From: an uncultured Woeseiaceae bacterium
GTDB lineage: Bacteria; Pseudomonadota; Gammaproteobacteria; Steroidobacterales; Woeseiaceae
Assembly: GCA_945788575.1 (NCBI GenBank)
Contig: CALZMR010000003.1
Coordinates: 1 to 33,108, forward strand
DNA length: 33,108 bases
Direction of reading: 5' to 3'
Shown here: positions 30,067-32,947 of the stretch, in pieces
Layout of the letters: each line of letters opens with the position of its first letter
How positions within the stretch are numbered: position 1 is the first letter of the stretch
Translations under genes and position numbers: made by a program
The notes under the pieces: model-generated
What the model was told of the DNA's origin: nothing
The model's database searches: none
The model's input: only the letters and a program-made list of their open reading frames with translations

Positions 30067-32760
30067 ATGGCCGGCCCCGATCTCGTCCTCATCGACGGCT
30101 CGTCGTATCTCTACCGAGCCTTCCATGCTTTGCCGGCGCTGACGAGTTCGTCGGGTGATCCGACGGGCGCGCTGCACGGCGTGCTCTCGATGATCGCCAA
30201 ACTCGTCCGCGAGCAGCCCAATGCGCGGTTCGCGGTCGTGTTCGATGCGCCCGGCAAGACCTTCCGCGACGAAATCTTCGCGGACTACAAGGCCAATCGT
30301 CCACCGATGCCGGACGAGCTGCGCTCGCAGGTCGAGCCGATACTCGACGCGGTCAAGGCGATGGGACTTCCTTTGCTTCGCGTCGAAGGCGTCGAAGCCG
30401 ACGACGTCATCGGCACTCTGTGCCAGCAGGCCTCCGACGCCGGCCAGAGTGTGCTCGTTTCGACCGGCGACAAGGATCTCGCGCAGCTCGTCGACGGCGG
30501 CGTGACGTTGATCAATACGATGAACGACAGCGTCATGGACCGCGACGGCGTGAAGAGCAAATTCGACGTCTGGCCGGAACAGTTTGTCGACTATCTCGGC
30601 CTCGTCGGCGACAGTTCCGACAATATCCCGGGCGTCCCCAAGGTCGGACCCAAGACAGCCGCGAAGTGGCTGAACGAGTGGGGCAGTGCCGACGGCATCG
30701 TCGCCAACGCTGATGCGATCAAGGGCAAGGTCGGCGAGAGCCTGCGCGACAACATCGATTCGCTGCGGCTGTCCTGCGACCTGGCGACGATCCGTCGCGA
30801 CCTCGACCTGCCGGTCGCGGTAGAAGATCTGGCTGCAACCGATGCCGATGTCGCCGCATTGCGCGAAATCTATGCGCACTACGAGCTGCGGTCGCTTCTG
30901 AAACAGCTCGACGACGCGACGGGCGAGCCCGAAACACCGGCCGCTGAGCAAAAGGGCGATTACGAGACGGTGCTCGAATGGGATGCGTTCGATCGCTGGT
31001 TCGAAAAGATCACGAATGCCGATCTGGTCGCCCTCGACACCGAGACCACGAGTCTCGACTACATGTCGGCCGAGCTCGTCGGCATCTCGCTCGCTGTCGA
31101 GCCCGGCGAAGCGGCCTATATCCCGCTTGCGCACGATTACCCCGGCGCCCCGGATCAATTGTCGCGCGACGAGGTTCTCGCGAAGCTCAGAGACTGGCTC
31201 GAAGATCCCGCCGCCGCCAAGGTCGGCCACCACCTGAAGTACGACGCCCATATTTTTGCGCGCTATGACACTGCGCTCGGCGGCATGGCCTATGACTCCA
31301 TGCTGGAGTCCTACGTTCTGAACAGCGTCGCCACGCGCCACGACATGGACTCGACGGCACGTCACTATCTCGGTCACGAGACGATCCACTACGAAGATGT
31401 CGCCGGCAGGGGCGCGAAGCAGCTGACATTCAATCAGATCGATCTCGAAACGGCAGCGCCGTATGCCGCGGAGGATGCGGACGTGACGCTGCGGCTGCAC
31501 CGGACGCTTTGGAAGTCGCTGTCCGAGATCGCCTCCCTGAAATCCGTCTATGAGCAGATCGAGCAGCCCCTCGTGCCCATCCTGCTCGCGATGGAGGAGA
31601 CTGGCGTGTTGCTGGATCGGCAGATGCTGGCAACCCAGAGCCGGGAACTCGCCGGCGAGATGCAGAAACTCGAGCAGCAGGCACACGAGCTCGCAGGCGG
31701 GCCGTTCAATCTCGGCTCACCGAAGCAGCTTCAGGAGATCCTCTTCGAGCGTCTCGAGCTGCCCGTGATCCGCAAGACGCCGAAGGGGCAGCCGTCGACG
31801 GCCGAAGACGTGCTTGCCGAACTCGCCCACGACTACGAACTGCCGCGCGTCATCATCGACTACCGCAGCGTGTCGAAGCTGAAGAGCACCTATACCGACA
31901 AGCTGCCGCTGCAGATCTCCAATCAGACCGGGCGGGTGCACACCTCCTACCATCAAGCAGTCGCGGCGACAGGCCGGCTCTCGTCCACCGACCCGAACCT
32001 GCAGAACATCCCGATCCGCACGGCCGCCGGCCGCCGTATCCGGCAGGCCTTTATTGCGCCCGAGGGCTATCGGCTGCTCGCGGCCGACTATTCTCAGATC
32101 GAGTTGCGCATCATGGCCCATCTGTCCGCCGACGAAGGGCTGCTGGGTGCCTTCGCCGCGGGCCAGGACGTGCACCGTGCGACCGCGGCCGAGGTCTTCG
32201 GGGCCTCGCTCGACGACGTCAGCGCCGATCAGCGCAGGTCGGCCAAGGCCATCAACTTCGGACTTATGTACGGCATGTCGGCATTCGGCCTGGCGAAGCA
32301 ACTCGACATTAGCCGCGGCGAGGCTCAGGAGTACGTTGACCTGTATTTCGATCGCTATCCGGGCGTCAAAGCCTATATGGACGGCATCCGCGAGCAGGCC
32401 CGTGCCAATGGTTATGTCGAGACGGTATTCGGTCGCCGGCTGTATCTGCCGGAGATCAACGCGAAGAACGTGCAGCGGCGCCAGTATGCGGAACGCAGCG
32501 CAATCAACGCGCCGATGCAGGGAACCGCGGCGGACATCATCAAGCGGGCGATGATCCGAGTGCAGGAAAGTCTCGCCGCTGAGAAGCTCGATGCCCGAAT
32601 GATCATGCAGGTGCACGACGAACTCGTCTTCGAAGTCGCCGACGGTTCGGTCGAGCCGCTCAGGGAACTGGTCGTCAATCTGATGGAAGGTGCGGCGGAA
32701 CTTGCGACGCAGCTTTCAGTGGACGTTGGAGTTGGTCACAACTGGGACGAAGCGCATTAG
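30067..32760 (+). CDS. polA: DNA polymerase I
   Basis: The 897-residue protein has all three activities. The N-terminal 5' nuclease runs from LVLIDGSSYLYRAFHALP through EGVEADDVIGTL, GDKDLAQLV and DNIPGVPKVGPKTA (about residues 4-290). The 3'-5' exonuclease is intact, with Asp324 and Glu326 in LDTETTSLD. The polymerase domain has motif A DYSQIELRI (674-682), motif B RRSAKAINFGLMYG from Arg723, and motif C QVHDELVFE (848-856). It removes RNA primers and fills gaps. The length is near the usual 900-930. A candidate regulatory RNA follows the stop. Confidence 0.96.
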   Translation: MAGPDLVLIDGSSYLYRAFHALPALTSSSGDPTGALHGVLSMIAKLVREQPNARFAVVFDAPGKTFRDEIFADYKANRPPMPDELRSQVEPILDAVKAMGLPLLRVEGVEADDVIGTLCQQASDAGQSVLVSTGDKDLAQLVDGGVTLINTMNDSVMDRDGVKSKFDVWPEQFVDYLGLVGDSSDNIPGVPKVGPKTAAKWLNEWGSADGIVANADAIKGKVGESLRDNIDSLRLSCDLATIRRDLDLPVAVEDLAATDADVAALREIYAHYELRSLLKQLDDATGEPETPAAEQKGDYETVLEWDAFDRWFEKITNADLVALDTETTSLDYMSAELVGISLAVEPGEAAYIPLAHDYPGAPDQLSRDEVLAKLRDWLEDPAAAKVGHHLKYDAHIFARYDTALGGMAYDSMLESYVLNSVATRHDMDSTARHYLGHETIHYEDVAGRGAKQLTFNQIDLETAAPYAAEDADVTLRLHRTLWKSLSEIASLKSVYEQIEQPLVPILLAMEETGVLLDRQMLATQSRELAGEMQKLEQQAHELAGGPFNLGSPKQLQEILFERLELPVIRKTPKGQPSTAEDVLAELAHDYELPRVIIDYRSVSKLKSTYTDKLPLQISNQTGRVHTSYHQAVAATGRLSSTDPNLQNIPIRTAAGRRIRQAFIAPEGYRLLAADYSQIELRIMAHLSADEGLLGAFAAGQDVHRATAAEVFGASLDDVSADQRRSAKAINFGLMYGMSAFGLAKQLDISRGEAQEYVDLYFDRYPGVKAYMDGIREQARANGYVETVFGRRLYLPEINAKNVQRRQYAERSAINAPMQGTAADIIKRAMIRVQESLAAEKLDARMIMQVHDELVFEVADGSVEPLRELVVNLMEGAAELATQLSVDVGVGHNWDEAH

Positions 32761-32796
32761 ATAAGCACTGATTTTTCAGATGGTTATCTATGACGC

Positions 32797-32824
32797 GGAA
32801 CTTAATCGGCGTTCTGCAATCTCA
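32797..32824 (+). promoter_or_regulatory. Sigma-E/AlgU-like promoter of the post-polA RNA
   Basis: GGAACTT (32797-32803), the exact -35 of extracytoplasmic stress factor sigma-E/AlgU, is followed after 16 bases by TCTCA (32820-32824), which fits the TCnnA -10 class. Transcription would start near 32830, just at the first hairpin of the RNA. Confidence 0.5.
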
Positions 32825-32829
32825 ATTCC

Positions 32830-32947
32830 TGAGTGCATTAGTCACTCGCCTGTTTACCTCCCTAAGCAGGCGGGCAACCCGGTTACCCCAAGCCGGTTGC
32901 TTCTCGGACCCCCCTCTGTCACCCGCACAGAGGGGGGTCAATTTTTT
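32830..32947 (+). ncRNA. Candidate small regulatory RNA downstream of polA
   Basis: About 118 nt between a sigma-E-like promoter and a strong terminator, with no open frame. Four consecutive hairpins are visible: (1) GAGTG/CACTC, 32831-32847; (2) a stem of up to 10 bp with one G-U pair, 32847-32856 with 32863-32872, loop CCTCCC; (3) a 10-bp stem with one bulged C, 32874-32884 with 32891-32900, loop ACCCCA; (4) the terminator, loop CACCCGC. Loops 2-4 are C-rich, so they could pair with Shine-Dalgarno sequences. Spot 42 and ErsA lie beside polA in other Gammaproteobacteria, and C-rich loops are known from sX13 of Xanthomonas. Primary sequence relation to any of these is not shown. Confidence 0.65.
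32907..32947 (+). terminator. Rho-independent terminator, perfect 13-bp stem
   Basis: GACCCCCCTCTGT (32907-32919) pairs without mismatch with ACAGAGGGGGGTC (32927-32939) across a 7-base loop, and six T follow at 32942-32947. It terminates the small RNA and any polA read-through. On the minus strand no T-run follows, so it acts mainly rightward. Confidence 0.92.

Follow-up and report, generated by a model that had tools for sequence, protein, structure and literature searches.

Behind the polA gene of the window, by which the whole stretch of 33,108 nucleotides analyzed here is meant, lies what looks from its sequence like a real small-RNA gene. The comparison with related genomes supports the conservation of the RNA structure, the loops, an ECF-type promoter and the place of the gene. 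From these features we infer that the RNA is transcribed, depends on sigma-E, and pairs with and represses a set of targets. We regard it as likely that it is a sigma-E-induced trans-acting sRNA whose C-rich loops pair with G-rich ribosome-binding sites. As RNAs of this kind, with the same type of promoter and position, recur across many related bacteria, the stress regulator is probably ancient, although it has received little study, and it would silence messages at these sites. Among the matches listed from the open-licence full-text literature, the RNA is undescribed in Woeseiaceae and anti-hemB is not joined to sigma-E.

Locus, fold and conservation of the RNA

The original prediction had described an exact GGAACTT-N16-TCTCA string followed by four hairpins, the last being a 13-bp terminator, and all of these are present in the window (Table 1). 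The predicted fold of the four hairpins has an energy of -60.9 kcal/mol compared with -35.6 +/- 3.7 kcal/mol for shuffled sequences (z = -6.9), and 0 of 200 shuffles were as stable. The terminator carries two adenines between its stem of 13 pairs and the T6 tail. The putative start of the RNA was deduced from the distance to the -10 element. The last 61 bases of the window form the 3' end of engB on the opposite strand, giving the order polA, RNA and a convergent engB.

Table 1. Features of the putative sRNA gene and its neighbours in the window.
Feature	Position	Strand	Basis or remark
polA, DNA polymerase I, upstream neighbour	30067..32760	+	897-aa ORF, stop at 32760
-35 element GGAACTT, ECF/sigma-E type promoter	32797..32803	+	conserved upstream of the RNA
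-10 element TCTCA	32820..32824	+	16 bases after the -35 element
Candidate sRNA gene, ~117 nt	32830..32947	+	fold and covariance model match (32827-32907); start approximate
Hairpin 1, GAGUG/CACUC	32831..32847	+	predicted fold
Hairpin 2, anti-Shine-Dalgarno-like loop CCUCCC at 32857-32862	32848..32871	+	fold, covariation
Hairpin 3, loop ACCCCA at 32885-32890	32872..32902	+	fold, covariation
Hairpin 4, 13-bp terminator 32907-32939, loop CACCCGC at 32920-32926, T6 tail 32942-32947	32907..32947	+	sequence
engB (yihA) 3' end, convergent, clipped by the contig end	33048..33108	-	read by eye against the engB C-terminus

A BLAST search with positions 32797-32947 found the stretch in its own genome and in 34 of 36 other genomes of the genus, and none of the 23 genomes from other genera gave a match. 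The genus alignment A1 was calculated with MAFFT without structural information and comprises 34 sequences including the window's own; the locus L010 as well as second copies in L019, G003 and G009 were left out due to N or contig ends. Across these 34 sequences the letters CUCCC of loop 2 are invariant, and so is CCCCAA of loop 3 except for one nearly invariant column, which makes both loops more strongly conserved than the stems. The 24 pairs of the structure are paired in 91.8% of the cells and show compensatory changes in nine pairs (22 cells), values which 0 of 500 shuffles reached, and the covariation score is 0.140 versus 0.04-0.07 with the partners slid by one column. Compensatory changes in stems 2 and 3 together with conserved C-rich loops had been named in the original prediction as support for it, and such changes were found in five of nine and four of ten pairs, respectively. 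Stem 1 is paired in 98.2% of the cells and has no double change among the genus sequences. RNAalifold, unprompted, arrived at nearly the same structure.

A terminator hairpin followed by a T-run was found downstream of the RNA in 33/33 genus, 57/60 order and 96/97 class matches examined. All three C-rich loops that had been predicted are present in the window, and loops 2 and 3 are kept in the genus. The third, in the terminator, is not: CCC occurs in this loop in only 3 of 33 genus terminators, in 26 of 57 from the rest of the order and in 66 of 96 from the class, so that a C-rich terminator loop is a loose feature.

Going beyond the genus, the covariance model R1 matched 125 of 246 genomes, representing 40 of 66 genera, from the order, which probably also holds Steroidobacteraceae-like members. 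Model R2, which was built from 78 matches, raised this to 182 of 246 genomes (53 of 66 genera) and also matched 95 of the 369 class genomes, which represent 71 of 271 genera and, by our own count, 57 family labels. The class in GTDB usage includes the beta-proteobacteria. Since the E-values of the covariance models are rough, the position of the matches, with polA as the anchor for locating the loci of the relatives, served as an independent check. In the genus set, polA lies upstream in 30 of 34 loci, the other four having less than 400 nt of contig upstream, and a convergent engB follows in 33 of 34, the exception being the window's own clipped copy. In the order set (60 of 78 non-genus places, mostly the higher-scoring ones), 55 loci have polA upstream in the same orientation, 47 of them within 600 nt, and 56 have a convergent engB downstream. 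The class set consists of 98 matches in 87 loci of 84 genomes, with four genomes of the own order and the matches of G425, G454, G324, G461, G550, G556, G420 and G424:C35 left out. Here 76 matches are accompanied by polA, at most 600 nt upstream, by engB, at most 800 nt downstream, or by the two genes together (34 both, 28 engB only, 14 polA only), and the other 22 by neither. One locus (L170) has the RNA inverted with respect to polA and engB. The wider alignments A2 and A3, which were fitted to the structure, contain double changes in 21 and 24 of the 24 pairs, respectively (0 of 500 shuffles). These compensatory changes extend over stems 1-3 and include all five pairs of stem 1 in both alignments.

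A tandem duplication within the genus was rejected: G016 and G009 do have second copies, but these adjoin N runs containing repeated sequence and seem to be products of the assembly. In the class, L268 (G426:C33) and L279 (G533:C8) each contain four tandem RNA copies between polA and engB, with a GGAAC box before every copy as judged by eye.

A coding role of the window's RNA found no support, as the frames starting in its 81-nt core stop after two codons or run three codons to the edge. Two long ORFs over the RNA stretch start upstream of the promoter. A 10-codon GTG frame (VRKSLACLPP-like) starting from hairpin 1 recurs in 17 of 34 genus RNAs, e.g., in L013, L017 and L026, and is cut to two codons in the window; other members of the genus may make a tiny product from it.

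Related RNAs and the polA locus

No Rfam family matched the window at its gathering score. The anti-hemB family (RF02837) reached 30.1 bits in the window, below its gathering score of 49.5, and an E-value of 3.4e-4 against the whole host genome, again below the cut-off. In the relatives, the RF02837 cut-off was passed in 9 of 40 loci scanned (7/20 and 2/20). Two of the nine are the Steroidobacteraceae-titled loci L078 and L086, which belong to the training set of R2, and the other seven are class loci found with R2, six of them by polA or engB. The window RNA is linked to RF02837 via these intermediates, which were found with a model built on this very RNA. Among the 369 class genomes, RF02837 passes its cut-off in 20. 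At an E-value of 1e-3, it matches 168 of the 369 and 87 of the 95 R2-positive genomes, an overlap counted by genome and not place by place; matches below the cut-off also occur in 3 of 14 control genomes, including that of E. coli. The rule for placing the RF02837 matches (the CTCCC nearest to the middle of the locus) was crude and missed in several loci, and only single loci and the overlap by genome were used from it. Several RF02837 matches per genome were observed in G518, G404, G406, G517 and G576.

Hairpin 2 with its CCUCCC loop, hairpin 3 and the terminator of the window RNA align with anti-hemB. In contrast, the Rfam model starts at hairpin 2 and comprises neither hairpin 1 nor the promoter nor the locus, and the name implies an antisense to hemB, which is not applicable to the window RNA. 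Around the strongest RF02837 match (locus L306), neither polA nor engB was matched within 1.5 kb, and a promoter of this kind is missing as well. In Burkholderia cenocepacia, anti-hemB (Burkholderia RNA 7) corresponds to ncS04, which is given with its start and a length of 105 nt and which co-purified with Hfq (PMC5688073; PMC4603805); by qPCR, one study saw no significant change of it under the conditions tested (PMC5688073), which counts against the reading favored here. This ncS04/anti-hemB RNA is a likely relative, and, judged by the model matches, the RNA family includes at least part of Rfam's anti-hemB.

The place agrees with that of Spot 42 and ErsA, as the original prediction had proposed. 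E. coli K-12 has the order polA, spf and a convergent yihA (engB), and the ErsA family (RF01719) was found behind polA in all five Pseudomonas/Halopseudomonas loci. In contrast to the window RNA, spf is repressed by cAMP-CRP. E. coli Spot 42 also carries an annotated small protein, SpfP. No Spot 42 family was among the Rfam matches of the window, and R2 gave chance-level scores over E. coli spf (8.4 bits, E-value 6). ErsA resembles the window RNA in its place and in a GAACTT-type -35 element, which three of the five ErsA loci have by the strict rule. ErsA is described as dependent on sigma-22 (AlgU) (PMC5819304; PMC7565897), and the window RNA shares with it both the polA-adjacent place and a promoter of the sigma-22/sigma-E type. 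RF01719 did not match the window at its gathering score or at E-values up to 10, and R2 on ErsA remained at chance level (L109, 8.8 bits, E-value 5.1); at the end of ErsA or just past it, L080 and L096 gave 14 bits (E-value 0.5).

A precedent for the mode of action is sX13 of Xanthomonas, to which the original prediction had aptly pointed: it is polA-adjacent like the window RNA, folds into three stable stems with C-rich loops and represses mRNAs having G-rich motifs near their translation starts (PMC3771888). Stress conditions such as high salt or a temperature of 37 C raise its level (PMC3771888). The window has three C-rich apical loops, of which the genus keeps those of hairpins 2 and 3 and retains CCC in few terminators. 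sX13 acts without Hfq; the host of the window encodes hfq. R2 scored 18.2 bits (E-value 0.08) on the Rhodanobacter polA locus L098, the sole locus compared from the sX13 side, where GCAACTT-N16-TCTAA and a terminator loop including UCCCCCU were found. A further stress-related sRNA is GsrN of Caulobacter, which is driven by the stress factor sigma-T from a promoter with a GGAAC -35 element and whose co-purified RNAs are listed with G-rich sites (PMC5869019). It resembles the window RNA in this type of control and differs in being alphaproteobacterial and sigma-T dependent; polA is not mentioned in the paper that describes it (PMC5869019).

The sX13 study had raised the question of whether further bacteria also have sRNA genes at the polA locus (PMC3771888). 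Until now, polA-adjacent sRNAs were known as separate cases, i.e., Spot 42, ErsA, sX13 and alpha-r7, and here one RNA family with mostly one type of promoter was followed across the 57 family labels of the class. The name anti-hemB and the shorter Rfam model hide this promoter and locus, and an orphan annotation becomes a testable stress regulator. Tentatively, and with more doubt than belief, the polA-engB gap may be read as an ancient output of sigma-E in gamma- and beta-proteobacteria, where a single ancestral sRNA of three hairpins, one of them with an anti-Shine-Dalgarno-like loop, was the source of the Woeseiaceae RNA, of anti-hemB, probably of sX13, and also of ErsA and Spot 42. If so, ErsA would have diverged by faster change and Spot 42 likewise, with a loss of the sigma-E promoter, and envelope stress would damp the translation of many mRNAs whose ribosome-binding sites are strong and G-rich.

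Proposed action on ribosome-binding sites

The RNA would be the product of a stand-alone gene between polA and engB. Under envelope stress, it would be transcribed from about 32830 by RNA polymerase with RpoE (sigma-E), the sigma factor of the envelope stress response, and the intrinsic terminator would end it. The product would consist of three rigid hairpins and the terminator, in which the loops CCUCCC and CCCCAA supply the conserved unpaired letters. These would pair with G-rich stretches, chiefly Shine-Dalgarno sequences such as GGGAGG and also UUGGGG-like motifs near start codons, and the pairing would lower the translation of a set of mRNAs. Calculated duplex energies of the loops are -16 to -18 kcal/mol with sites of the GGGAGG or UUGGGG type and -12 kcal/mol with a plain AAGGAGG, for six made-up sites and excluding the cost of opening the stem. 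By analogy, translational repression appears most likely, because the repression by sX13 requires both its C-rich loops and the G-rich motifs of the targets (PMC3771888). The fixed loops offer a model for a target choice that is predictable from sequence. The hfq gene, a target of sX13, was considered and is not an obvious target here, since neither GGGG nor GGGAGG was found just upstream of the hfq start of the host.

We consider it unlikely that the RNA, although real and driven by sigma-E, acts mainly in another way than by blocking ribosome-binding sites, e.g., as a sponge of G-rich RNA, as a protein-binding RNA or as an activator of mRNAs. Such roles would suit its high degree of structure and short free loops, and they have parallels in GsrN, whose pairing with the katG leader activates katG (PMC5869019, where the term C-rich loop is used three times), and in ErsA, which is reported to activate amrZ besides repressing algC (PMC5819304). 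However, the nearly invariant CCUCCC loop is complementary to the Shine-Dalgarno sequence, and this, like the requirements of sX13, argues for repression at ribosome-binding sites.

Promoter and sigma factor

The combination of GGAACTT with a TCTAA-like -10 element at a spacing of 16-17 is the RpoE/AlgU type. The consensus used for scoring was GGAACTT-N15-17-TCAAA. In the relatives the -10 element often reads TCTAA, TCCAA or TCAAA. The covariance models contain no promoter sequence, and L022 was too short to be counted. Of the loci, 32 of 33 from the genus and 57 of 60 from the order matched at least 9 of the 12 promoter positions, compared with a share of 2.4% among 6,020 other windows and of 6.4% among 1,860 shuffles. 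The best match lies at the same place in 90 of 93 loci, with a spacer of 16 in 84 and of 17 in 9. A promoter of the sigma-E type is kept at a fixed distance from the RNA. Directly before the RNA, a simpler rule (NGAAC, followed at 15-17 by TC or NCTAA) was satisfied by 32/33 genus, 58/60 order and 79/98 class matches versus 192 of 13,355 control windows; the latter were recounted for every match within a locus, and some may contain the promoter of a tandem copy.

In a test which was not selected on the RNA, the strict motif was found in sense orientation within 300 nt behind polA in 14 of 77 named loci, compared with 0 of 77 in antisense, 7 of 2,366 control windows and 16 of 3,850 shuffles (p = 3e-17). 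The 14 loci include L033 of the same genus, the R2-matched L045 and L052, three ErsA loci and gammaproteobacteria beyond the clear reach of R2, such as L038 (Methylococcaceae), whose predicted RNA also has a C-rich loop. In the 3.68 Mb host genome, the bare string GGAACTTN15-17TCTNA is not enriched (two exact matches versus four of the reversed string). The bare string does not exceed chance; what speaks for the promoter is that it recurs at a constant position before the RNA.

The host encodes RpoE (293 bits, cut-off 236), with rpoE, rseA (PF03872) and rseB (PF03888) in a row, and AGAACTT-N16-TCTAT is found upstream of rpoE. Within the order, RpoE was detected at an E-value of 1e-50 in 171 of 182 RNA-positive versus 31 of 64 RNA-negative genomes (Fisher p = 2.5e-14, weakened by shared ancestry and incomplete assemblies), and outside the genus in 125 of 133 versus 31 of 63. 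Against RpoE as the factor, it was not found at this threshold in 11 RNA-positive genomes of the order, three of them from the same genus (G004, G011 and G214), some of which may be incomplete assemblies. G011 has a decayed -35 element (TGAATTC), yet TGAACTC is kept in G004.

That another ECF sigma factor or sigma-70 transcribes the RNA in place of RpoE seems improbable to us. The host genome has 15 RpoE-like matches, 14 of which fall below the family cut-off, and 19 of the 98 class matches lack the motif of the simpler rule, which leaves room for other factors; RpoE is favored by the consensus of the promoter, the similar element upstream of rpoE and the co-occurrence of the RNA with RpoE. 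Finally, the position between two convergent genes and the closing terminator would also suit mere transcription ends of polA and engB without a separate gene, a reading we regard as far-fetched in view of the promoter conserved between polA and the RNA, the loops 2 and 3 that are more conserved than the stems, the RNA lying more than 600 nt from polA in 8 of the 55 order loci that have polA upstream, all with at least 9 of 12 promoter positions, the fourfold copies of L268 and L279 with GGAAC upstream, and ncS04 (anti-hemB) being listed with its own start and length (PMC5688073; PMC4603805).

Some further observations were made around the promoter. An imperfect hairpin without a T-run (TAGATAA..TTATCTA) extends from the polA stop codon (32758-32792). 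At about 32768-32792 and at the same place in the genus loci, a block upstream of the -35 element looks conserved by eye, consisting of a T-rich run, TCA, a few bases and an ATTTACG-like string, often with TCTAAACTAT before it; an UP element or a binding site for an activator would be possible. The RNA relatives in L220, L228 and L235 have no GAAC promoter and show TTGNNN-N16-TANACT boxes by eye, as if their control had moved to sigma-70. Five genomes of 1.3-2.0 Mb from the same family or genus (G130, G204, G208, G238 and G198) have neither an RNA nor an RpoE match. In addition, promoters of the GAAC/GAAAC type together with C-rich stretches were seen behind polA in L038, L044, L060, L067, L075, L083 and L095, which are named gammaproteobacterial polA loci outside the clear reach of R2 and likely hold further sRNAs of the polA locus.
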